Positions 1,658 to 47,303 of a stretch of 64,000 nucleotides of DNA are shown here, one piece after another. The stretch is from NCBI GenBank assembly GCA_945861665.1, contig CAMAVS010000004.1:1-64000 (forward strand), in the 5' to 3' direction. The stretch is from Chitinophaga pinensis (GTDB taxonomy: Bacteria; Bacteroidota; Bacteroidia; UBA4408). The translations under genes were made by a program, and so were the position numbers. The notes below the pieces were generated by a model, which was given only the letters and a program-made list of their open reading frames with translations, searched no databases and was not told where the DNA came from. Positions within the stretch are counted from its first letter, which is position 1. Each line of letters begins with the position of its first letter.

Positions 1658-1745
1658 TGTGCAGCTTGTCCCGGCAAGTTGACTTTTTTTTGAATTTGTT
1701 ATTGCAAATTTTTAGATTGATATATATTTAGTGAAAATGAATATT

Positions 1746-3317
1746 ATGAAAAATTTACTACTTGTTTCTTTTGTGTTGTTTACTTCGGTGCTAAAGGCGC
1801 AGAATTTAACCTCGTCAAACTTGCCCATCGTTGTTATTCAAACATTTGGCGCTGTCCCAATTCCCAATGAACCAAAGGTTCCGGCATTCATGGGTATCAT
1901 AAAAAATGCCAATGGTGTGCGTAATAGTACCACCGATCCTTACAACGATTACAGCGGTAAAATATTGGTTGAAATGCGTGGCGCTTCTTCCCAAATGTTT
2001 TCGCAAAAGCAATATTCTATTGAAACAGTAACAATGCAAGACAGTAGTCGCGATGTTTCAATTATGGGTATGCCTGCCGAGCACGAGTGGATTTTGTACG
2101 CTCCTTACAATGATAAAACACTTATGCGAAATTATATAGTGTATAATTTAATGAGAGAAATCGGACATTGGGCTCCACGCACTGAATATTGCGAAGTAAT
2201 ATTAAATGGTGATTATAGAGGTGTATATATAATGGTTGAAAGTATTAAAAGGGATAAGAACAGGGTATCTGTAGCAAAAATGGATTTAGACGATAATGCA
2301 GCTGACAGTTTAACAGGAGGCTATATTTTTAGAACAGATTGGGATGGTGGTTTTGTTCATTATCCTAAAAATGGAGGAACGCCTCAGCAATCAAATTATA
2401 TAACAAGCTATGTAAATTCAACAGTGGATGGTATAATGAACTCGGCCAATTATAATAATCCGGTAACAGGTTATAATAAGTACTTAAAAGTATCAACATT
2501 TATCGACTATATGTTAATGATAGAGTTTTGCGGAAACCAAGACTCCTATCACGCAAGTACTTATTTTCATAAGGAAAACATCGCAAACGATAGTGGACAA
2601 ATAAAAGCGGGTCCGGTTTGGGATTATAATTTTGCATTTGGAATTAGTCCTTGGTATGGCTCCACACATAGCTTGTGGATGTACACTACCGGAAACGGTG
2701 GGATGAATGGTTGGATTAATAGAATGATGCAGGATACCAATTATGCAAACAAGGCGCGTTGCCGATGGGATTGGTTACAAACAAAAACGATGGATACGGT
2801 TTATGTATTTCATAAAATGGATTCCATTGCAAATTTATTATCCGAATCTAGAGTTCGACATTTTACCAAATATCCTATTTTGCCTGCAGGTAGCTGTGGC
2901 GATTGCTACAACAATTACAGTCCATTGCAGGAGCCATCAACTTATGAAGGTGATTTAAAATATATGAAAGATTGGATATCAAGAAGGGTAGCTTTCTTGG
3001 ATTTTAATTTAATTGGTACTTGCCACGAGGTAGGTATTGATAAAATTACTCCTACAAGTAATACCTATATGCTTTTGTACCCTAATCCAGTTGAAAATAA
3101 ATTGTATTTGAATGTATTTTTAAATACTACAGCAAATATTTCTGTCGATATTTTTAGTGCAACAGGTGAGTTAATTCTTCATAAAGAATTAGGACTTTTA
3201 AATGCCAACGATTATACATTCTCTGTTGATGAATTTACGGAAATATCTTCCGGATTATATCTTTTAAAGTTGAATTCCGGTTCACAAACTTCTACAAAAA
3301 CATTTATTAAAAAGTAA
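1746..3317 (+). CDS. Secreted CotH-family kinase with T9SS sorting domain (1)
   Basis: CotH-like protein kinase exported to the cell surface; its substrate is unknown. An N-terminal signal peptide (MKNLLLVSFVLFTSVLKAQ) leads into a CotH domain over roughly residues 60-415. Its core shows GMPAEHEWILYAPYNDK, GGYIFRTDWDGG and GPVWDYNFAFG, the last two being the Asp/Asn-rich metal- and ATP-binding segments of the fold. The last 80 or so residues (YPNPVENKLYLNVF ... GLYLLKLNSGSQ ... KTFIKK) are a type A T9SS sorting domain. I chose the ATG at 1746 because it gives a compact signal peptide; ATG 1737 or GTG 1731 would add three or five residues. Two paralogues lie at 35-39 kb. The gene is flanked by two relics. 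Confidence 0.85.
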   Translation: MKNLLLVSFVLFTSVLKAQNLTSSNLPIVVIQTFGAVPIPNEPKVPAFMGIIKNANGVRNSTTDPYNDYSGKILVEMRGASSQMFSQKQYSIETVTMQDSSRDVSIMGMPAEHEWILYAPYNDKTLMRNYIVYNLMREIGHWAPRTEYCEVILNGDYRGVYIMVESIKRDKNRVSVAKMDLDDNAADSLTGGYIFRTDWDGGFVHYPKNGGTPQQSNYITSYVNSTVDGIMNSANYNNPVTGYNKYLKVSTFIDYMLMIEFCGNQDSYHASTYFHKENIANDSGQIKAGPVWDYNFAFGISPWYGSTHSLWMYTTGNGGMNGWINRMMQDTNYANKARCRWDWLQTKTMDTVYVFHKMDSIANLLSESRVRHFTKYPILPAGSCGDCYNNYSPLQEPSTYEGDLKYMKDWISRRVAFLDFNLIGTCHEVGIDKITPTSNTYMLLYPNPVENKLYLNVFLNTTANISVDIFSATGELILHKELGLLNANDYTFSVDEFTEISSGLYLLKLNSGSQTSTKTFIKK

Positions 3318-35151: not shown

Positions 35152-36750
35152 CTAATATTTTATAACAGTTTTGTTGTAAGCTTTTGTTGCTGTTAATACT
35201 CTAAGCATATACACACCGCTGGGAAGGTTATCGTAATCTGATAGTGATTGATTGTAGTCACCCGCTGTTTTTGTACCACAATTTATTATTTTAATAATTT
35301 GTCCTAAATAATTCATCAATTGTATTTGAACTTCTGTTGTTTCGTTTAGGAAATAATTTACAGTAAGTTTTTTATCGAAAGGGTTGGGGTAGATGCTTAT
35401 ATATGCATTTTTTGCGATAGAATTAGCATCTTCAACACTTACATTGTAACAAGTCCCCAACATATTGTTATCCATCCATTTTAGTCGCCCATCAAGCCAT
35501 GTTTTCATATAATCAATTTCACCTTGGAAAGTGGTTTCAAGCGGTAGCGGTTCGCTTATTACATTGGTTCCTAGCAATGGCCATTTTACAAAATGGCGTT
35601 GTTGACTTTCATTTAAATACGTTGTCATTGAGTCCAAGTAATTATTTAAATAGCCGTTCGGAATATTTTTATAACGTACCCAATCCCAACGACATTTTAG
35701 TTTATTTAAGAAGGTCGTATCCTGCATTAATTTTTCAAACCAATCCATTTTAGCTCTACAAAAATTTACTGAATATATCCAACCGGTGGTGTCGTGCATT
35801 GCGCACCAATTGAGATTCCCGAAAGAAATATTGTAATCCCAAATAGGTCCTGCTTTTATTTTACCTCCATCGGTAATTTTTTCTTTGTGAAAGAAATTAC
35901 TGGCAACATATCCATCCCAATTTTTGGTAAACTCATTCATAATAATAAAGTCAATGAATGTAGTAACATCAATGTATTTTTTGTATCCAATTAAGGGGTC
36001 GGCATAATTAATGCTGTTAAGTGCATTTTCAAAACTATCTACGAATAATTTTATGTAATTTTTTTGTTGAACACTTGGAGTATATGGATAGTGATACTGG
36101 AAACTAATACCGTTGTATTGCGAATTCCATCCGCCATATTGAACACCGGCACCCCAGTCTTGTTTAAATATATAACCGCCGGTTAAACTATCACCGTCAT
36201 TGTCGTCTAAGTCTAACTTTGAAATTTTTACTCTGTTTTCACTGCGTTTAATTTTTTCCATTAACACATAAATACCTTGGTAGCTACCATTTAAAATTAG
36301 TTCACAAAATACTGAACGTACTGCATAGTTTCCAATTTCACTTGCTATTTTAAAAGTCGTAACGTTTCTTAAAAGTGATTTGTCGCTATAAGGTGCATAC
36401 AATATCCAGTCGTTTTCGGCAGGCATATTTAACAAACTTACATCAACGGCAGAATCAAGTATGTCTCTTGTTTCAATACTGAAACATTTTTGAGGAAAAG
36501 TTTGAGAGTAATTTCCTCTTAGTTCAATTCCAATTTTACCGTTATAATTATTGAATGGGTCTGTTGTGTTATTTCTAACTCCAGGTCCATTGTAAATGAT
36601 TCCCATATTAACGGTTATCTTGGGCTCATCGGGTATTTGTTGATTATTTGTTGTAATTACAATAATAGGTAGATTAGATGATGTAAAAACCTGTGCAAAC
36701 ACTATGTTTGAAAAGGTAATGGAGATAATGAGTAATTGTGTTTTTTTCAT
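35152..36750 (-). CDS. Secreted CotH-family kinase with T9SS sorting domain (2)
   Basis: Surface-exported CotH-like kinase of 532 residues, paralogous to those at 1.7 and 36.9 kb. A signal peptide (LLIISITFSNIVFAQ) is followed by the shared start FTSSNLPIIVI and the CotH domain. Conserved segments are NMPAENDWILYAPYSDKSLL (about 110), GGYIFKQDWGAG (about 190) and GPIWDYNISFG (about 295). The C-terminal 80 residues (YPNPFDKKLTVNYFLN ... SGVYMLRVLTATKAYNKTVI) form a type A T9SS sorting domain. Adjacent and parallel to the third paralogue with 158 bp between them. Substrate unknown. Confidence 0.85.
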   Translation of the reverse strand: MKKTQLLIISITFSNIVFAQVFTSSNLPIIVITTNNQQIPDEPKITVNMGIIYNGPGVRNNTTDPFNNYNGKIGIELRGNYSQTFPQKCFSIETRDILDSAVDVSLLNMPAENDWILYAPYSDKSLLRNVTTFKIASEIGNYAVRSVFCELILNGSYQGIYVLMEKIKRSENRVKISKLDLDDNDGDSLTGGYIFKQDWGAGVQYGGWNSQYNGISFQYHYPYTPSVQQKNYIKLFVDSFENALNSINYADPLIGYKKYIDVTTFIDFIIMNEFTKNWDGYVASNFFHKEKITDGGKIKAGPIWDYNISFGNLNWCAMHDTTGWIYSVNFCRAKMDWFEKLMQDTTFLNKLKCRWDWVRYKNIPNGYLNNYLDSMTTYLNESQQRHFVKWPLLGTNVISEPLPLETTFQGEIDYMKTWLDGRLKWMDNNMLGTCYNVSVEDANSIAKNAYISIYPNPFDKKLTVNYFLNETTEVQIQLMNYLGQIIKIINCGTKTAGDYNQSLSDYDNLPSGVYMLRVLTATKAYNKTVIKY

Positions 36751-36908
36751 AAATTATTGCAATAAACAGTATTTTAAGTTTTTACTTTTATAAGATAAAG
36801 CCCGCTCAGTAATGTTTTAAATCCCTCCAACTTTTGCGTATAGTCGCTAGCTTGATTTTGAACCACAATTAACACACTTAACAGTTTTAGCTATAATTTT
36901 TATAACTC

Positions 36909-38963
36909 TTAATTCTTTACAACGATATTGGAATATGTTTTGTGCATTGTGTTAACCCTTACTAAGTAAATACCTGTTGGTAAACTGTTAAACTGATCAA
37001 TTGTCTCATTGTAGTCACCTACGGGCCTCACTCCACAATCAATATCCTTAATGATTTGCCCCAATGGATTAACAAACTCTATGGTAACTTTACTTTCTTC
37101 GTTTAAAAAGTAATTGATATTTAAAAAATCTTGAAATGGATTAGGGAAAACCGTTACAAATGCATCGTCTACCATATTGTTCTCACCAATACCAACCTCG
37201 GTACAATTCCCTTCCAAGTTTCCATCAATCCAAGCAAATCGGGCATTTATCCAACTTTTCAAATAGTCAATTTCACCTTGATAGGAAGTAGGAACAGCAA
37301 AAGGGCTCACATTATTATAGCAACAGCCAATACCCATTATTGGATATTTTTCGAAGTGTCTTTTTTGCGCTTCATTTAAAATATTCGCCATCGAATCTAA
37401 AAAGTTATTGATATAAGTATTACTTAGCGTTTTTGAGCGTAACCAAAGCCAACGGCATTTTACTTTGTTTTGGTAAATGCTGTCTTGATTTAAGCGCTCC
37501 CACCAATCTATTTGTCCAAAATTATCTAAGTAACACCATTCAGCACGCCCAGCGGTATTGCCATTTGGATTAGCACCATACCAGGGACTTAAACCGTAAC
37601 CGAAATTATAATCCCAAGCAGGTCCTGATTTTAACTGTCCACCTTTTGAATATTTGTCTTTGTAAAAATACAAACTTGCTCTGTATCCATCAGAATTACG
37701 CATCATTTCATTTATTATTTGACAATCAATGAAAGTAGAAACTTTCATGTATTTTGTATAACCTGTTATTGGGTCATTAAATGTTGGACTATACAAGGCA
37801 GTTTCGAGACTATCTACATATGACTTTATATATGTTTTTTGAGGTACTGTAATTTTGTATTTAGGGTAATGGTTGAAAAACCTGTTTCCCATAACTGAAT
37901 TAAATTGTACAATTCCATCCCAATCCCTTTTAATAATGTACCCGCCTGTTAAACTATCTCCTGCATTATCATTCGTATCTAATTTTGCAATATTCACTCT
38001 ATTATCTCCTCTTTTCACCTCTTCTAGCATTATGTAAACACCTCTGTACTGACCATTTAACACAACTTCGCAAAAACGTGTGCGGGAAGCATAGTGTCCC
38101 ATTTCGTTTGCTATATGGTAGGTTAAGAAATTTCGCAACAATGTTTTATCATTATAAGGTCCGTATAAAATCCATTTATTTTCAGCAGGCATCCCAAAAA
38201 CGGTTGTATCTAATACTGAGTCAAGCATATCATGTGTTTCAATTAACCACGATTTCTGATCGAATTGTTGAGATAGTTGACCTCTTTGTTCAATCACCAT
38301 TTTAATGGCAGGGTCGGTAACCGAGTCGCTCACATAATTGCGCACGCCAGGGGCATTTTCAATGAAGTTAATTCTTCCCGGGATTCTGGGTTCGTCAGGA
38401 ATAGTTGCCCCAAACGTATTTATCAATACAATAGGAAGGTTTGAGGACGTAAATTTTTTTGGTTTGGATGGTTTATTACTGAATTTTAATGTCCAGTTTA
38501 CTACCGTACCAATTTGGCCATTATTGTCGTTATCGGTTACCAGCAGGTTCCAGTTTCCATTTCCATTTTGATTCGTATTAACAATATAAATAGATCCTTG
38601 TGGTTTAAAGTTACCTGTAAAGGGGGCTGTTCCACCATATACATTTTGTACTGCCGAATCAATAAAAATAGTGTTTACAAAATTATCACCACTTCCGCCA
38701 ATGTTATTTGTAAGGTTAAATATTGCTCCATTAGGGGCTTGCACTTGTACACGTAAATCGCCAACGGATGAATGTGCGATGTTTATTTTAACATATTCCA
38801 GTCCATACACTGTGTCAATATTTTGCGGGATACCAACAGTGGTTATTTGACTGGTAGTTGTTTGCCCATCAATAATTGGGTTACCTAGCCCTGTAAAAAT
38901 TTGCGCAAAAGTACCAGTTGAAAAAATAGTAATGGATAAGATTGTAATGTAAATTTTTTTCAT
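36909..38963 (-). CDS. Secreted P-domain / CotH-family kinase with T9SS sorting domain (3)
   Basis: A 684-residue surface protein. After the signal peptide, residues 25-165 form a proprotein-convertase-type P-domain (VKINIAHSSVGDLRVQVQAP, WNLLVTDNDNNGQIGTVVNW), a jelly roll usually attached to secreted proteases. The CotH kinase domain follows (about 175-590) with FGMPAENKWILYGPYNDK, GGYIIKRDWDGI and GPAWDYNFGYG. The tail (FPNPFQDFLNINYFLN ... TGIYLVRVNTMHKTYS) is a type A T9SS sorting domain very close to that of the neighbouring CotH gene. The other two copies lack the P-domain. Confidence 0.85.
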   Translation of the reverse strand: MKKIYITILSITIFSTGTFAQIFTGLGNPIIDGQTTTSQITTVGIPQNIDTVYGLEYVKINIAHSSVGDLRVQVQAPNGAIFNLTNNIGGSGDNFVNTIFIDSAVQNVYGGTAPFTGNFKPQGSIYIVNTNQNGNGNWNLLVTDNDNNGQIGTVVNWTLKFSNKPSKPKKFTSSNLPIVLINTFGATIPDEPRIPGRINFIENAPGVRNYVSDSVTDPAIKMVIEQRGQLSQQFDQKSWLIETHDMLDSVLDTTVFGMPAENKWILYGPYNDKTLLRNFLTYHIANEMGHYASRTRFCEVVLNGQYRGVYIMLEEVKRGDNRVNIAKLDTNDNAGDSLTGGYIIKRDWDGIVQFNSVMGNRFFNHYPKYKITVPQKTYIKSYVDSLETALYSPTFNDPITGYTKYMKVSTFIDCQIINEMMRNSDGYRASLYFYKDKYSKGGQLKSGPAWDYNFGYGLSPWYGANPNGNTAGRAEWCYLDNFGQIDWWERLNQDSIYQNKVKCRWLWLRSKTLSNTYINNFLDSMANILNEAQKRHFEKYPIMGIGCCYNNVSPFAVPTSYQGEIDYLKSWINARFAWIDGNLEGNCTEVGIGENNMVDDAFVTVFPNPFQDFLNINYFLNEESKVTIEFVNPLGQIIKDIDCGVRPVGDYNETIDQFNSLPTGIYLVRVNTMHKTYSNIVVKN

Positions 38964-39107: not shown

Positions 39108-41492
39108 TTAAGACTTGGTGCCTTTTTCATTTCCATAGCCATAACCGCCATAACCGCCATAACCGCCATAACCGCCATAACCATAACCACCATAACCATA
39201 TCCATATCGGTTATAGTAGTAACGAGATCGCTTACGCTGCACTCCATTCAGTATTAATCCAAAATTAGAAATGGTATTTTTGTCAACAATTTCTATAGCA
39301 TTGTTAACAGATTCTTTTGTAGCATATTTGGTGTTTAATACGAACAAATTAACATCGGTGAATTTAATTAAAACAAGTGCATCGGAAATTAAACCTACAG
39401 GTGGAGTATCAATGATGACATAATCATAATGTTTTCTGCCATAAATTAGTACTTCTTCCATGTGTTTACTCAAAATAAGCTCGGAAGCATTTGGTGGAGA
39501 TGGCCCCGCTAGTAATGCATCTAAATTTTCTAATCCGGTTTGTAAAATACAATCGCTTATCTCATCTTTTCCAATAAGAATTGAGCTCATGCCTTTGTCG
39601 CTTGATATACCAAGTCCTAAATGCACTTTGGGCTTATGCAAATCAAGTTCAATAACAAGCACTTTTTTACCCGCTTTGGCTAATATAGAAGCAATATTAA
39701 TGGAGCAGAATGTTTTTCCCTCGCCAGGATTATTGGATGTTATTAATACAATTTTAGAGTCCTTGCTTGAGCCCATATACTCTAAATTTGTTCGTATCGA
39801 CCTAAAGGATTCTGTTATTGGTGACTTAGGGTCAGCATCCACAACTATATATGAATTTTTCCCTATTTGAGAATACAAAACTTCGCCCAAAACAGGAATC
39901 GTTGTTAATGCCTTTAACTCCTCAACACTTTCAATTCTGTCGAAAAATGCTGTTCTAATAAATACAATTATAAGAGCGATTACTATACCAACACCCATAA
40001 ATGAATACAACAGTTTTGATTTGTCAGGAGATACTTGACCTAAGTAGCGTGCCGACTCAATAATTTTCGTTTCAGGAACAATGCTGGCTCTTGCAATAAC
40101 GGTATTTGCTTTTTTCTCTAGCAAAAACAAGTACATATTCTCGTGTACTTTCATCTTTCGTTGTATGTTTAATAATACACGTTGTTTTTCAGGAATTGTC
40201 TTAATGTTTCCTATGTATACATTAATTTGTTTCCCAACCCTTTCAATATTGGCAGTTATTGCAATTTTTGTATTTGTAAGATAATTTAGAATGTTTTTCT
40301 TTAGGCGACCAATTTTTTGTTCAATTTCCTTCAATGACATATTTTCATTAGTAGCCATAAACAATGAGTTTGTTCGTGCCATTTGCATATTGTAAAGTTC
40401 TCCTACTAACTTCCTCAATACATCGTCATTATTATTTACATAAAATGAAGGGGGTAAAAATTCGGGGTTTTTATCTTCAATAATATATTTTTCCAATGCT
40501 TCAATAGAACCAAATTGTAGTTTTAATGAAGTTCGTTGATTTTCATAATTTGTCAATTGTGTAAAATACTCTTGCTCTTCTTTACTAAGGTCTAAAATGG
40601 ATTTTTCCTTTTTGTAATTCTCCATAGTATCTTCAATGGAAGACAAGGTTCCAACTACTTCCCGAAGCTGCCTATCAATATACAATAATGTGTTTTCATT
40701 TATGTCTATTTGCGACTTTAATGTGTTCTCTAGGTAAACAACTGAAAGGGTATCTAAAAAGAGAACAGCTCTTTCAGCGATTTCATCTTGCACTTTAACT
40801 GTTAAAATTGCTGTAAATTCCTCATTGTCAACTGTTAAGCTGTTCTGGTATTTTGAAATTAAGTTTGCTTTGTTATGAACTACAAATTGATACTTAATTT
40901 CTTTTAAACTCCCTATGGTTGTTGGATTTAAATTTTGATTTTTCTTAATTTCAAATATAAAATCACTTGTAATATTTTGTTTGTTGAAGTAATATTCTTG
41001 GCTTACCGTTTCACTCCCTTTTTCATACGATAATGAATACCTCAATTCATCAAGTATATTAACCTTTATTGGTAGTTCATATAAATTAGGATTGATTGTT
41101 CCTGGAATTACAAGAAAAGGCACAGCATCGTATACTTCAGTTGTTTTTAAATGTCCTGCTATGTAGTAGGATACATTTAGGTTAAGCTTAGAAATAGCCC
41201 TGTCAATTAGGTTATACGACTTTATAACCCTCATTTCGTTGGCCGTTTTTTCAAAACTACCATAATTGAAACTGCTTTCATATATTACACTCGTAGTTCT
41301 GTATGGTTCGGCTGACTTTAGCAAAAGCTGTGTTTGCGCAGCGTATATACTCGTTTGCTTGTGTATATATATATTGGCAATTACTGCCGAAATAATAATT
41401 GCAACAACAAGTATAATCCAGTTTTTTGAAAAAATTCTCCAAACAACTTTTAAGTCATTAAGATCAACAATGGAATTGTTTTTTGCTGGCAT
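39108..41492 (-). CDS. Wzc-like polysaccharide co-polymerase / tyrosine autokinase
   Basis: Inner-membrane protein of 794 residues controlling length and export of a surface polysaccharide. Two membrane helices (about 27-47 and 493-513) flank a periplasmic Wzz region with long coiled coils. The cytoplasmic BY-kinase domain has Walker A SNNPGEGKTFCSINIA (about 590), Walker A' VLVIELDLHKP (about 622; Glu where the usual pattern has Asp) and Walker B YVIIDTPPVG (about 700). The last 45 residues are a Tyr/Gly cluster (RSRYYYNRYGYGYGGYGYGG...), the autophosphorylation tail. No Wza-type export channel or glycosyltransferase is adjacent. Confidence 0.88.
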   Translation of the reverse strand: MPAKNNSIVDLNDLKVVWRIFSKNWIILVVAIIISAVIANIYIHKQTSIYAAQTQLLLKSAEPYRTTSVIYESSFNYGSFEKTANEMRVIKSYNLIDRAISKLNLNVSYYIAGHLKTTEVYDAVPFLVIPGTINPNLYELPIKVNILDELRYSLSYEKGSETVSQEYYFNKQNITSDFIFEIKKNQNLNPTTIGSLKEIKYQFVVHNKANLISKYQNSLTVDNEEFTAILTVKVQDEIAERAVLFLDTLSVVYLENTLKSQIDINENTLLYIDRQLREVVGTLSSIEDTMENYKKEKSILDLSKEEQEYFTQLTNYENQRTSLKLQFGSIEALEKYIIEDKNPEFLPPSFYVNNNDDVLRKLVGELYNMQMARTNSLFMATNENMSLKEIEQKIGRLKKNILNYLTNTKIAITANIERVGKQINVYIGNIKTIPEKQRVLLNIQRKMKVHENMYLFLLEKKANTVIARASIVPETKIIESARYLGQVSPDKSKLLYSFMGVGIVIALIIVFIRTAFFDRIESVEELKALTTIPVLGEVLYSQIGKNSYIVVDADPKSPITESFRSIRTNLEYMGSSKDSKIVLITSNNPGEGKTFCSINIASILAKAGKKVLVIELDLHKPKVHLGLGISSDKGMSSILIGKDEISDCILQTGLENLDALLAGPSPPNASELILSKHMEEVLIYGRKHYDYVIIDTPPVGLISDALVLIKFTDVNLFVLNTKYATKESVNNAIEIVDKNTISNFGLILNGVQRKRSRYYYNRYGYGYGGYGYGGYGGYGGYGGYGYGNEKGTKS
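39131..39210 (-). repeat. Imperfect 9-bp tandem repeat coding a Tyr/Gly tail
   Basis: Units of CCGCCATAA (plus strand) repeat about five times without change and then degenerate (CCATAACCA, CATATCC). They encode GYG/YGG steps at the C-terminus of the tyrosine autokinase. All changes stay in frame. Repeat number could vary by slippage. Confidence 0.8.
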
Positions 41493-41672: not shown

Positions 41673-44543
41673 ATGAAAAGATATATACTACTACTTGCGG
41701 GAAACTTGTTTTTATTTGCAAATGCAAATGCAATTGTATACGTTTCGGCAGTGGCTGGTTCTTGGGATACTCCAGCGAACTGGTCGCCTGTAGGAAGACC
41801 AACTACTGGCGATAATGTAACGGTGAATCACGCAATGACTATTGCCACACCTGTGAACATTAGTATTTTTATATTAGGTGCTGCTGGAAGTGTTTCTGTG
41901 GGGACACAAACGCTAACCTTAAACAGTACCGTTACTGGTTTAGGGGGAACAATTACGTCATCATCAACAGGAACGGTAACCTACAATCAAGCATCTAATG
42001 GTCAAAATGTATTGGCTGGTAGTTATGGTAATTTAACCTTTAGTAATTTTAATAAGGTGTTGGCAGCGGCAGGCAATATTAATATAAACAATCTTTTTAC
42101 TCCTGGTGCTGCAATTGCTCATACAATTGTGGGAAGTACCATACGTTATACTAATGTTAGTAACATTGTGCAAACTATTCAGCCTTTTCATTATAATAAT
42201 ATTACTGTTTTAAACAGTTCAGCTCCAGGCTATAAAAATTTTTTCGGTAGCATGCAAATAGATGGTGTGTTTACTCCACCATCAAATTTACAGTATTGTA
42301 CTGGATGCAACGCTTCTACTATTGATTTTAGTGGTTCGGGTGCTCAAACCATACCTGTTTTATACTATAATAACTTAACTTCTTCAGGTATAGGTGCCCG
42401 AACTTTAGCATCAAGTGGAATTATTCGCATTTATAATGTATTTACACCTGGAGCAAATGCATATACAGTTACCGGCAGCACTATTGACTATCATTCAAAT
42501 CGAAACCAAACAATTCAACCCTTTAGTTATAATAATTTAATAGTTTTTGCAAGTAATGTTGGTTTTTTAAAAACATTTTCAGGGGTAATAAACGTGGCAG
42601 GTTATTTTACACCGCCAAATAATTTTTTGTATAGCACCATGGGCAATACAATTAATTACAATGGTACCGGGGCGCAAACAATTAGAGGTAATTTTTACTA
42701 TGGAACTTTATCCTCATCGTCAACCGGGGCAAGAACACTTGATCCCACTTTTATTATTGATGTATATACTGCCTTTATACCGAGAACAAATAGCTACACG
42801 ATAACAAACAGTACGATTAGATATGCCGGTAGTGTATCTGAAACAATAGCCGCATTTACATATAATCATTTAATTTCATCGGGAACCGGTGCTAGGGTTT
42901 GGGACAATTCAGCCAACGTGATTATAAACCGAGATTTTACTGCCGGTACAAATACTTACACTGCAACCGGTAGTACAGTGGTATTTAGTGGAATTGTTTC
43001 ACAAACAATAACAGGGTCTTGTACCTGGAATAATCTCACCATTAATAATGCTACTATTGGAGGTGTTACTATTGCTTCTGGAACTCACACGCTAACTGGA
43101 GCATTAAATGTAGGCGCCTCACTTTTTACAGTTGGTTCAAATTCATTTACACTAATGTCAAACGCTTCGGCTACAGCACGTGTTGGGGTACTTATTGGCG
43201 GTGGGTCAATAGTTGGAACCAATTTTATTGTTCAAAGATATGTTTCTGCTAGGAGTGCAAATTATGCTGATTTAGCATCGCCAGTAACTGCTGAAACAAT
43301 TGCTGGATGGGATACTCGTCCGGATGGAAGCAATGAAATTTATATGAGCGGAGTAGGTGGAGCTGATGGTTTTGCCTTTGGTCCTGGAGCCTCTGTTTTT
43401 AATTGGAATGAGCCTACTGCTGCGTTTGTTGCCGTTACCACTCAAGCAACTGCATTAACTCCGGGATTGGGTTTTGAATTGTTCTTAGGGGATAACTTAT
43501 TAAATTTAAATGCCTTAACATTTGATTCAAGAGGAACATTGACGCAACAAACACAAAACGTACCAGGTTTAACTTTTACCGGTGATGGTTATAACTTAAT
43601 TGGAAACCCTTTTGCATCCTATATTTCTTGGAATACTGTTTTAGCAAGTTCAACTAACATTGACAATACTTATTTAATATTTGATGCTGCAATTGGTAAT
43701 TATGTTAGCTATGGTGCAGGTAGTGAAATTCCTGCGTCACAAGGGTTTTATATTCACGCAACATCTGCACCAACTGTTTCAATTACGGAAGCTGCTAAAA
43801 CTACAACTGTTACAAGTGTTTTTCACAAGCAACCTGTTATAGAGCCATGCCTAAGTATAAAGTTGTTTAAAACAGATCAATCTATTCCTTTTTCTCACGA
43901 AACAAAAATATATGCGAATGAAGTTTCATTGGATACTTACGATAAAGGTGATTTACCATTTATGAAGAGTCCCGTAAAAGAAGCCCCATCAATTACAACA
44001 ACCAGTAGCGATGGAAAAGAGTTGTATCATAATATTATTGGTAAGGATTATAGTTCAATAGATATTCCTGTTAATGTTGGCGTAGGTATTTCCGGAACAT
44101 ATACAATAGAAGCTAATGGATTGGCTTATTTAGGTGAATACTCGTGTGCAATTCTTGAAGACAAAAAAACAGGTTCACTGGTTAATCTTAAACAAAAAAG
44201 CAATTATACTTTTACTAGTACAGTTGGCGATACTAAAGAAAGGTTTGTGCTACATTTTAATAATTCAAACTGCGCTCCATCTCCCCAAACCAATTTTACG
44301 ACCTTATCGGATGAAATCAGTATTGTTAAAAGTGAATTAGGTAATAATGTTACTTTCTATTTAGATCAAAGCGAACAGGTAATAATCAAAGTTACAAATA
44401 GTTTGGGTCAAACAATCATTGAAGATATAGAGAGTTACCTACAAGTTGGAACAATTAAGTTGTTATTGCCAATGTATACAGGTATTTACTGTGTAACGGT
44501 GATTACTCAAAAAGGAAGTATTACCAAAAAGTTTGTAAATTAA
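41673..44543 (+). CDS. Large repeat-containing surface protein with T9SS sorting domain
   Basis: A 956-residue exported protein. Signal peptide (LLLAGNLFLFANANA), then a beta-rich array (about 30-520) in which NVFTPGANAYTVTGSTIDY-like units recur with Q-T-I-(Q/A)-P-F-x-Y-N-N. I count about five strongly related units, suggesting a right-handed parallel beta-helix. Residues 520-740 form a non-repeated domain (FIVQRYVSARSANYADLASP, GDGYNLIGNPFASYISWN) often seen in Bacteroidota adhesin-like proteins. The end (EQVIIKVTNSLGQTIIEDI ... TGIYCVTVITQKGSITKKF) is a type A T9SS sorting domain. The PID-CTERM gene follows 11 nt later. Confidence 0.8.
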   Translation: MKRYILLLAGNLFLFANANAIVYVSAVAGSWDTPANWSPVGRPTTGDNVTVNHAMTIATPVNISIFILGAAGSVSVGTQTLTLNSTVTGLGGTITSSSTGTVTYNQASNGQNVLAGSYGNLTFSNFNKVLAAAGNININNLFTPGAAIAHTIVGSTIRYTNVSNIVQTIQPFHYNNITVLNSSAPGYKNFFGSMQIDGVFTPPSNLQYCTGCNASTIDFSGSGAQTIPVLYYNNLTSSGIGARTLASSGIIRIYNVFTPGANAYTVTGSTIDYHSNRNQTIQPFSYNNLIVFASNVGFLKTFSGVINVAGYFTPPNNFLYSTMGNTINYNGTGAQTIRGNFYYGTLSSSSTGARTLDPTFIIDVYTAFIPRTNSYTITNSTIRYAGSVSETIAAFTYNHLISSGTGARVWDNSANVIINRDFTAGTNTYTATGSTVVFSGIVSQTITGSCTWNNLTINNATIGGVTIASGTHTLTGALNVGASLFTVGSNSFTLMSNASATARVGVLIGGGSIVGTNFIVQRYVSARSANYADLASPVTAETIAGWDTRPDGSNEIYMSGVGGADGFAFGPGASVFNWNEPTAAFVAVTTQATALTPGLGFELFLGDNLLNLNALTFDSRGTLTQQTQNVPGLTFTGDGYNLIGNPFASYISWNTVLASSTNIDNTYLIFDAAIGNYVSYGAGSEIPASQGFYIHATSAPTVSITEAAKTTTVTSVFHKQPVIEPCLSIKLFKTDQSIPFSHETKIYANEVSLDTYDKGDLPFMKSPVKEAPSITTTSSDGKELYHNIIGKDYSSIDIPVNVGVGISGTYTIEANGLAYLGEYSCAILEDKKTGSLVNLKQKSNYTFTSTVGDTKERFVLHFNNSNCAPSPQTNFTTLSDEISIVKSELGNNVTFYLDQSEQVIIKVTNSLGQTIIEDIESYLQVGTIKLLLPMYTGIYCVTVITQKGSITKKFVN

Positions 44544-44554
44544 AATTTTAGAAC

Positions 44555-44761
44555 ATGAAAAAAACACTTTTTGTTTTTGCACTTGCAATATTTACTGTTT
44601 GTGTTGTGCCGATTAAAAAATCATTGGCAGCAGGAGCACCACCACCACCTCAAACTTGTTGGCCTCCTCCATGTATTCCTATTGATGGGGGAATAAGTTT
44701 GTTAATTGCTGCAGGAGTTGCATTGGGGGGTAAAAAAATGTACGGCTTTAGGAAAAAATAG
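44555..44761 (+). CDS. PID-CTERM exosortase-substrate micro-protein
   Basis: Only 68 residues: signal peptide (about 1-25, ending SLAA), a Pro/Cys-rich core (GAPPPPQTCWPPPC), then PIDGG, one hydrophobic helix (ISLLIAAGVALGG) and a basic tail (KKMYGFRKK). Motif + helix + Arg/Lys tail is the tripartite signal recognised by exosortases, here of the PID-CTERM class. After both cleavages the mature part would be about 20 residues with a CWPPPC pair of cysteines. It lies 11 nt after the T9SS repeat protein and is followed by a terminator, then the exosortase gene. Confidence 0.8.
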   Translation: MKKTLFVFALAIFTVCVVPIKKSLAAGAPPPPQTCWPPPCIPIDGGISLLIAAGVALGGKKMYGFRKK

Positions 44762-44781
44762 TTTAAATATTCGACAAATAG

Positions 44782-44815
44782 AAAAGGGGCAAGGTGTAAC
44801 ACTCGTCTCTTTTTT
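44782..44815 (+). terminator. Terminator after the PID-CTERM gene
   Basis: AAAAGGGGC pairs (with two G-U) with GTCTCTTTT around an inner GTG/CAC hairpin, and the downstream strand ends in a run of T. It separates the repeat-protein/PID-CTERM unit from the exosortase unit. Confidence 0.6.
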
Positions 44816-44962
44816 ATTTTATAAATACTGAATATAAGCAATTCATACTTGCTAATAATATTTATAATTCATATTGATTATCCATCTGCAAGAGAATAAT
44901 TTATCGCTTTACAAATGTTATTGGATTGTGATTTTTTGTTCCCTTCCCTCATAAAAGTTGAG

Positions 44963-44970
44963 TACTTTTG
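44963..44970 (+). promoter_or_regulatory. Putative -7 box of the exosortase unit
   Basis: TACTTTTG matches TAnnTTTG and lies 13 nt before the ATG at 44984. The -33 element is not clear. Confidence 0.4.
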
Positions 44971-44983
44971 TATTCAAGTTTAT

Positions 44984-45523
44984 ATGTATTCCAAAATAAA
45001 GCAAAATAAGGTATTGTTTTTTTTATTGAAAGCACTGATGTTATATGTGCTTTGGTATATGTTGTACGAGTTGTGGATTGGTCCAGAAGGGTATCTGGAT
45101 GCTTGGGTAATAAACAATTTAGTTGACTTATCGTCTTTTATTTTAAAAGTATTCGGCTACAGATTGATGCCCGAACCATTGTTAGCTGAAAATATACGCA
45201 CAGTTGGTATTGATGGTACGCACGGTTTATGGATTGGTGACCCCTGTAATGGTATAAGTCTTTTTGCACTTTTTATTGGTTTTGTCTTAGCGTATCCCGG
45301 TTCAGCACAAAAAAAAGTGTGGTTTATTCCATTGGGTATTTTAACGATACATTTATTGAATGTTATTCGTATTGTTCTACTCACAATTATTGTTAAAAAA
45401 GCACCCGAATACTTGGCTTTTAACCATACCTATACTTTTACATTTATAGTGTATTCATACGTGTTTATATTGTGGATGATTTGGGCGAATAAACTTTCAA
45501 TACCAAGAGAAAGTGGTAAGTAA
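44984..45523 (+). CDS. Exosortase / archaeosortase family transpeptidase
   Basis: Multi-pass inner-membrane cysteine protease or transpeptidase that cleaves the C-terminal sorting signal of exported proteins. The 179-residue form starting MYSKIKQNK has about five hydrophobic helices and all three family residues: Cys in GDPCNGISLFALF (about 88), Arg in LNVIRIVLLTI (about 127) and His in FNHTYTFTFIVYS (about 150). It is shorter than proteobacterial EpsH, as usual for Bacteroidota types (XrtF/XrtX-like; exact subclass undecided). The start at 44984 replaces one 69 nt upstream that would sit before the promoter box. The likely substrate is the PID-CTERM protein just upstream. Confidence 0.85.
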   Translation: MYSKIKQNKVLFFLLKALMLYVLWYMLYELWIGPEGYLDAWVINNLVDLSSFILKVFGYRLMPEPLLAENIRTVGIDGTHGLWIGDPCNGISLFALFIGFVLAYPGSAQKKVWFIPLGILTIHLLNVIRIVLLTIIVKKAPEYLAFNHTYTFTFIVYSYVFILWMIWANKLSIPRESGK

Positions 45524-45530
45524 TAAAAAA

Positions 45531-45995
45531 ATGATTCGGGTGCTGATACCTGCTGCTTTCATATTATTATTTTTAGGATACTTTCGCGACTATATCTTTA
45601 TAAATATTAATTTTCTTTCTGGAGTTAAGTATTATCCTAACATAATAACAGATTATAAATTACCCCAACAACTATTTTTTTTAAATGCCTTCACTTACGA
45701 ACAATTGTATTACGGTAAATTTCTTGTCACAATGCTTTTTTCGGCCTCATTTTTAGTGGTGTCAATCATTGTTATTAAAAAACTCTTTAGCAGTTTAACA
45801 TACGTAAAATGGACTGTTTATACCTACATTTCATTGATCGTACTGTCAGGTGTTTTTTATACTTACGGAATGCTCTTTAATGATTTCAATAATGGCTATA
45901 AACTGTCGAGAGTTTTTATGGGTTTTTTGCAATCTCCTTTTGTATTAATGGTGCTTGTGCCGGCCTTTAAAATTGCAGAAAAGAATAACCCATAA
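45531..45995 (+). CDS. Exosortase-associated membrane protein
   Basis: About 154 residues with four predicted membrane helices (PAAFILLFLGYFRDYIFINI, FLVTMLFSASFLVVSIIVI, TYISLIVLSGVFYTYGMLF, FMGFLQSPFVLMVLVPAF). The N-terminal FRDYIF...NINF and the closing RVFMGFLQSPF match the general look of small proteins encoded right after Bacteroidota exosortases (exosortase F/X-associated membrane protein). The ATG at 45531 lies 7 nt after the exosortase stop; a GTG at 45513 would overlap that gene. Role presumed accessory to sorting. Confidence 0.7.
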   Translation: MIRVLIPAAFILLFLGYFRDYIFININFLSGVKYYPNIITDYKLPQQLFFLNAFTYEQLYYGKFLVTMLFSASFLVVSIIVIKKLFSSLTYVKWTVYTYISLIVLSGVFYTYGMLFNDFNNGYKLSRVFMGFLQSPFVLMVLVPAFKIAEKNNP

Positions 45996-46028: not shown

Positions 46029-47303
46029 ATGAAACGAGATACCGTTATTTTTGATTTAATAAAGGAAGAGTTATACCGCCAAACAACGGGAATAGAATTA
46101 ATCGCTTCAGAAAATTTTGTAAGCGATCAAGTAATGGAAGCAATGGGCTCTTGCTTAACAAATAAATATGCTGAAGGCTTGCCTTCTAAGAGATACTATG
46201 GAGGTTGTGAAGTAGTAGATAAAGTAGAGCAGTTGGCAATCGATAGAGTAAAAAAACTGTTTGGAGCGGCTTGGGCTAACGTTCAGCCCCACTCAGGGGC
46301 GCAAGCAAATGCAGCAGTGATGCTTGGTGTATTAAAACCTGGCGACACCATATTGGGTTTCGACCTATCTCATGGTGGACACCTAACACACGGTTCGCCT
46401 GTTAATTTTTCAGGAAAATTATACCGCCCTACATTTTATGGTGTTGACAAAGAGACCGGGAAAATTAATTACGATAGCTTGGAAGCTACTGCTAAAAAGG
46501 AAAAACCAAAATTGATTATTTGTGGAGCTTCCTCCTATTCACGTGATTGGGATTATGTTCGTTTAAGAGCCGTTGCAGATAGTGTAGGAGCTTTGCTAAT
46601 GGCCGACATTTCACATCCCGCAGGATTGATTGCAAAAGGCTTACTAAATGATCCATTGCCACACTGCCATATTGTAACAACAACAACTCACAAAACACTT
46701 CGCGGACCAAGAGGTGGATTAATAATGATGGGTAAAGATTTTCCTAATCCTTTTGGTTTAACAAATCCCAAAGGAGAATTAAGACCAATGTCGAGCATTT
46801 TGGATGGCGCAGTATTTCCGGGAACACAAGGTGGCCCCTTGGAACACATTATTGCTGCAAAAGCCATTGCTTTTGGCGAGGCATTGTCGGACGATTTTCA
46901 AGAATACGGATTACAAGTAATGAAGAATGCGAAAGTAATGGCACAAGCATTTGTCGATAAGGGTTATGCTGTTATTTCAGGGGGGACAGACAACCATTGT
47001 ATGTTAATTGATTTGCGTTCAAAAAACATCACCGGTAAAGAAGCAGAAAACATATTGGTAAAGGCCCATATTACAGTAAATAAAAACATGGTTCCGTTCG
47101 ATGATAAATCACCGTTTGTAACTTCCGGAATTCGTGTTGGAACTTCTGCAATAACAACTAGAGGTCTCAAAGAAAATCAAATGGCTATAATTGTAGAATT
47201 GATTGATGAAGTAATCACCAATAAGGAAAATACCGAAGTGATTGAGAGCGTAAAGAAAAAGGTGAATAGCTTAATGAGCGACTTGCCTCTTTATGCTTGG
47301 TAA
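46029..47303 (+). CDS. glyA: Serine hydroxymethyltransferase
   Basis: PLP enzyme that interconverts serine and glycine with tetrahydrofolate. At 424 residues it is full length. [20 protein letters not shown] (about residue 19) opens the domain, and [13 protein letters not shown] (about 93) and the PLP lysine in [15 protein letters not shown] (about 230) are textbook. [12 protein letters not shown] near the end completes it. It faces the unknown 301-residue gene tail to tail with only 7 bp between. Confidence 0.96.

Follow-up and report, generated by a model that had tools for sequence, protein, structure and literature searches.

Genes for T9SS cargo proteins and genes for PID-CTERM micro-proteins are paired, and this pairing is not incidental. 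The recurring unit consists of a variable surface part, a constant RemA-like module and a T9SS sorting domain, followed by a PID-CTERM gene. Its occurrence in Bacteroidota and in allied lineages suggests that the T9SS and exosortase surface-sorting systems work together, and on balance we favor the reading that it is a two-gene surface unit with a dedicated enzyme, in which the exosortase XrtX would process a peptide that is the partner of a RemA-like T9SS adhesin. We analyzed one such locus in the window, the whole 64,000-nt stretch of DNA studied here, which belongs to a genome of 2.49 Mb in 13 contigs (99.8% complete).

All five features that a sequence-only reading had placed at positions 41673-45995 were present there. 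The T9SS cargo gene (41673-44543, plus strand) encodes a 956-aa protein with a signal peptide, a variable repeat region, a conserved module and a sorting domain. The sorting domain (residues 891-955; 44343-44537, plus strand) was identified as type A by TIGR04183 (27.2 bits, cut-off 23), and Pfam PF18962 gave 17.3 bits on the same C-terminus, under its cut-off of 27. PorU, the T9SS sortase, is encoded in the same genome (1335 bits). The cargo protein was predicted to be all-beta, and its structure model was only moderate (pLDDT 74); a fold search with this model gave no match below E 0.001. Pfam and NCBIfam scans detected no lectin domain in the protein.

The conserved module covers about 370 residues (500-870; 43170-44282, plus strand) and has no Pfam or NCBIfam name. 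When its profile was compared with the PDB, RemA (2.3e-17) and RemZ (5.4e-14) of F. johnsoniae were matched, indicating homology beyond the sorting domain; a single-sequence search found nothing. RemZ is a homologue of the gliding adhesin RemA in F. johnsoniae (PMC10994853). Module-bearing T9SS proteins also occur away from the XrtX locus, at 1 to 8 per genome; the single micro-protein might serve them in trans, or they might need none. In the genome of the window, contig C3 carries a 1521-aa M4 thermolysin-type peptidase fusion (L144:3165-7730) whose body is 65% identical to the window cargo; its gene sits in a tandem of three M4 genes, and no PID-CTERM gene follows it.

The 11-nt gap reported behind the cargo gene was confirmed, with the cargo ORF stop at 44543 and the next ATG at 44555. 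The gene that starts there (44555-44761, plus strand) encodes a 68-aa protein, and NF046080 verified that it is a PID-CTERM protein (39.2 bits, cut-off 26). Its sorting signal (residues 42-63; 44678-44743, plus strand) consists of PIDGG, a hydrophobic helix and a KK tail. Directly before PID lies a CWPPPC motif (44657-44674, plus strand), which occurs once in the genome; the CxPPPC box falls outside the 25-position PID model of NF046080. A signal peptide (judged by eye) and the C-terminal motif, helix and basic tail are kept across 72 relatives, with signal peptides that differ among them. In these cluster-type relatives (n = 72), the first cysteine of C-x-P-P-P-C was found in 67, the second in 68 and the prolines in 68-69. 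All four proline codons are used at these positions, which indicates conservation at the protein level. Once the signal peptide and the PID helix are taken off, a predicted mature part of roughly 13 to 34 residues is left, with a median of 20 as a rough estimate. A glutamine follows the likely signal-peptide cleavage site in 49 of 67 proteins, which fits the Bacteroidetes Q-rule (PMC5837995).

The two motif cysteines are absent from the PID-CTERM proteins of other classes. In the T9SS module, C825 and C867 are conserved in linked proteins, and we considered module cysteines as partners of the CxPPPC box. This candidate was dropped, since unlinked T9SS proteins likewise have a cysteine before the sorting domain (20/26) and partners in other classes have none there. 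At locus L082, neither the T9SS protein nor the micro-protein contains cysteines.

A terminator had been read 3′ of the micro-protein gene. We found a hairpin at about 44776-44819 (plus strand; -16.6 kcal/mol, z -4.1) that was not listed by a consensus terminator scan, so the assignment as a terminator is likely and not certain. The micro-protein and XrtX genes touch in most relatives (median gap 3 nt, 70 loci), which makes the 222 nt in the window an outlier; this gap with its hairpin is a local departure. A TACTTTTG box (44963-44970, plus strand) stands before ATG 44984 and may be a separate XrtX promoter. The -7 box of Bacteroidota is TAnnTTTG, which the sequence fits.

The exosortase gene (44984-45523, plus strand) scored 204 bits with the XrtX model NF046081 (cut-off 170) and 95.5 with XrtF (cut-off 90). 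By comparison with relatives, its start is likely ATG 44984 (179 aa), not 44915. The Cys/Arg/His residues are intact, as had been proposed: of 79 homologues, 78 have C111 and all 79 have R152 and H171 (numbering from 44915). Five genomes of the same family (L012-L016) contain a second exosortase that scores 107-141 bits with XrtX, below the cut-off, and 72-75 with XrtY in the two scanned; no PID-CTERM gene lies beside it.

The membrane partner (45513-45995, plus strand) probably starts at ATG 45531 rather than GTG 45513. It was predicted to be all-helical (AlphaFold2 pLDDT 94.9), a fold search against the PDB gave no match, and profile comparison showed a distant relationship to the XrtF partner (93%). 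Its description as an exosortase-associated protein was upheld by its place next to XrtX in most relatives and not by the curated model, since it reached 58.6 bits against the NF046082 cut-off of 75. Close relatives of the partner were under the cut-off as well (57 and 71 bits), and we therefore name it XrtX-associated by position and homology.

The enzyme had been described as having a single substrate. A genome-wide scan revealed one PID-CTERM protein and one XrtX, and the micro-protein is thus the sole predicted exosortase substrate found in the genome. Weak matches at C3:320958 and C1:236947 were rejected as a second PID-CTERM protein (no signal peptide; inside a large protein). Exactly one PID-CTERM protein, adjacent to XrtX, was present in each of the 39 related genomes tested (39/39). 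Among 296 genomes sampled from the phylum, XrtX was found in 53, PID-CTERM in 48 and both in 44 (Fisher 1e-38, a value that overstates the strength because related genomes are not independent). Genomes of other lineages carry 1 to 9 PID-CTERM proteins, mostly away from XrtX, and among the XrtX loci fetched in the 296-genome sample a PID-CTERM gene was adjacent in 1 of 28.

To compare the gene order, 68 XrtX loci were fetched, 66 of them with enough upstream sequence. Among these 66, the micro-protein gene lay directly upstream in 60 and the partner gene was found in 63. The usual order is a divergent Wzc-type kinase, the T9SS gene where present, the micro-protein, XrtX, the partner and glyA. 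Instead of many PID-CTERM proteins and an unconserved order, we thus observed one such protein in this genome and an order conserved over many families. A T9SS gene was directly upstream of the PID-CTERM gene in 12/18 loci of an even class sample and 19/54 of a contig set, versus 6/372 background genes. In 11 of the 12 genomes with the link, the T9SS gene beside XrtX was also the best match of the window cargo in the whole genome, as judged by manual comparison of positions. Most loci have T9SS and micro-protein genes that overlap or are at most 45 nt apart, and at L028 and L029 the two are flipped as a block with respect to XrtX and its partner.

XrtX loci that lack a T9SS gene form a large clade (>30 loci) and also include those of the closest relatives sampled within the same family; in one genus of that family, the micro-protein, XrtX and partner genes lie together at a new site with no T9SS gene. 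On the XrtX tree, several deep branches have the T9SS link and one large clade does not (a minimum of 5 changes). Other arrangements were also seen. At L039:4817-8537, XrtX directly follows a T9SS gene, with no gene for the micro-protein or the partner, and at L170:1466-2736 XrtX and its partner are followed by a PID-CTERM protein that has no cysteines.

In the window, the Wzc-type polysaccharide tyrosine autokinase (39108-41492, minus strand; TIGR01007 167 bits) is the divergent neighbor, and serine hydroxymethyltransferase glyA (46029-47303, plus strand) is a housekeeping neighbor that is conserved beside the cluster and is not thought to be part of the XrtX system. The kinase ends in YGYGGYGGYGG, and the kinase has a similar glycine-tyrosine end in many relatives. 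Three CotH-like proteins with T9SS-type C-terminal tails are encoded at 1731-3317 and 35152-38963; two of their genes form a tandem close to that of the kinase.

We then turned to scattered PID-CTERM genes, which stand apart from XrtX, and read 90 such places in 42 genomes, 83 of which had an upstream reading frame. A gene with a T9SS sorting domain lay directly before the PID-CTERM gene in 69 of these 83, compared with 4 of 141 background genes (Fisher 3e-38, which relatedness among the genomes inflates in the same way); here and above, background rates refer to genes in the fetched stretches and not to whole genomes. The 69 pairs are spread over 32 genomes. All ten partners checked (10/10) passed the curated T9SS cut-off, and their N-terminal parts differ, with ice-binding, lamin tail, PARCEL repeat and choice-of-anchor E regions. 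The module of about 370 residues next to the sorting domain, in contrast to these variable parts, is common to 66 of the 69 partners and to the window T9SS protein. Since the scattered PID-CTERM genes still stand behind module-bearing T9SS genes, these results indicate that the small protein belongs with the large one, and the link suspected between them is better supported than the window alone could tell. At two loci (L131, L218), a tandem pair of PID-CTERM genes lies behind one T9SS gene.

Starting from the observed genes, catalytic residues, single substrate per genome, motif conservation and phylum-wide pairing, we propose the following course. The large protein would be a RemA-like adhesin that the T9SS carries across the outer membrane. 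Sec would export the micro-protein, whose C-terminal helix would keep it in the inner membrane, where XrtX and its membrane partner may cut it at PID. The remaining Pro/Gly-rich peptide of about 20 residues, with its CxPPPC box, could then be joined to an acceptor, such as a lipid or a polysaccharide, and the conjugated peptide might aid the maturation of the paired adhesin or its retention at the surface. A stronger version, in which the PID-CTERM peptide is an anchor or linker, covalently bound to or docked on the RemA-like module, so that the two systems assemble one structure, is put forward only tentatively. Independent support for a processed peptide that serves a T9SS partner, or is displayed with it, comes from F. 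johnsoniae, in which deletion of xrtF or its partner gene reduced colonization, abolished zorbs and strongly reduced biofilm, the same phenotype class as for the T9SS attachment genes porU and porZ (PMC10936215). The XrtX loci that lack a T9SS gene count against the proposed course, as do the off-locus module proteins, one of them in this genome, and the use in F. johnsoniae of the sister enzyme XrtF, at whose examined loci no PID-CTERM gene was found.

The loci free of T9SS genes persist, and they favor another account, in which the XrtX product is a matrix or lipid-linked surface peptide in its own right, tied to Wzc-dependent polysaccharide, and the adhesin is merely co-expressed for attachment. 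Most cluster loci, with or without the T9SS gene, are flanked by a divergent Wzc-type kinase, and exosortase systems are classically tied to exopolysaccharide (PMC1569441). However, the ORF inventory recognized no polysaccharide cluster in the 64,000-nt window beyond the kinase, and the PID-CTERM genes of other classes stand beside T9SS genes that have one particular module in common. We regard this account as rather doubtful. The link to a neighboring polysaccharide that the sequence-only reading had also offered is the weaker of its two suggestions, as the kinase is a frequent and not a universal neighbor; one genus (g2) has no Wzc beside the cluster.

The tight coupling of the T9SS and micro-protein genes, the very short mature part and the position of the partner's constant module next to the sorting domain would also fit a role ahead of secretion, in which the micro-protein serves its T9SS partner as a helper or checkpoint in the inner membrane or periplasm, is released by XrtX cleavage and never becomes part of the surface. 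Known exosortase and archaeosortase substrates are, however, thought to end at the cell surface (PMC11980579), and we consider such a role unlikely. Finally, glyA and Wzc also stay beside the cluster, which indicates that the region is syntenic in general, and the neighborhood could be inherited synteny with no functional meaning. The pairing, however, recurs at the scattered places in other lineages, where PID-CTERM genes lie away from XrtX, so it is not merely inherited synteny around XrtX; this explanation is largely refuted and appears highly improbable.

For F. johnsoniae, an exosortase phenotype has been reported with no substrate known (PMC10936215). The rule described here, by which each PID-CTERM micro-protein is produced next to a T9SS adhesin that carries one particular module, identifies the two partners, predicts a defined product of about 20 residues as a target for mass spectrometry, and opens the link between exosortase, T9SS anchoring and biofilm to direct testing. 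Among the papers searched, we found none that describes the T9SS/PID-CTERM pairing, the single-substrate rule or the CxPPPC box.

Classic PEP-CTERM/EpsH systems have many substrates per enzyme. They share with the window an exosortase, a C-terminal motif with helix and basic tail, and a Wzc-type neighbor, whereas the window system has one micro-protein and a T9SS partner. In the MYXO-CTERM/myxosortase system, a cysteine lies next to the C-terminal sorting helix, as it does here, but myxosortase is an unrelated CPBP-type enzyme (PMC11980579); moreover, the window-type micro-protein has two cysteines, and the PID-CTERM proteins of other classes lack them. RemA and RemZ (PDB 8gl6, 8gl8) match the conserved module and the sorting domain over about 350 residues, although the match excludes the N-terminal part and a lectin domain was not detected in the window protein. 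XrtF and its partner in F. johnsoniae (TIGR04128, TIGR04127) are a sister exosortase and a distantly related partner, but the XrtX score is far higher here, and no PID-CTERM gene stood beside a true XrtF in the XrtF loci examined. A further counterpart is the set of XrtX, PID-CTERM and XrtX-associated families (NF046081, NF046080, NF046082), all three components of which are present and adjacent in the window. The NCBIfam models name these parts, which are known families. Pairing with a module-bearing cargo, one substrate per enzyme and the CxPPPC box are additional here, and in the literature searched the rule of pairing and the box seem to be undescribed.
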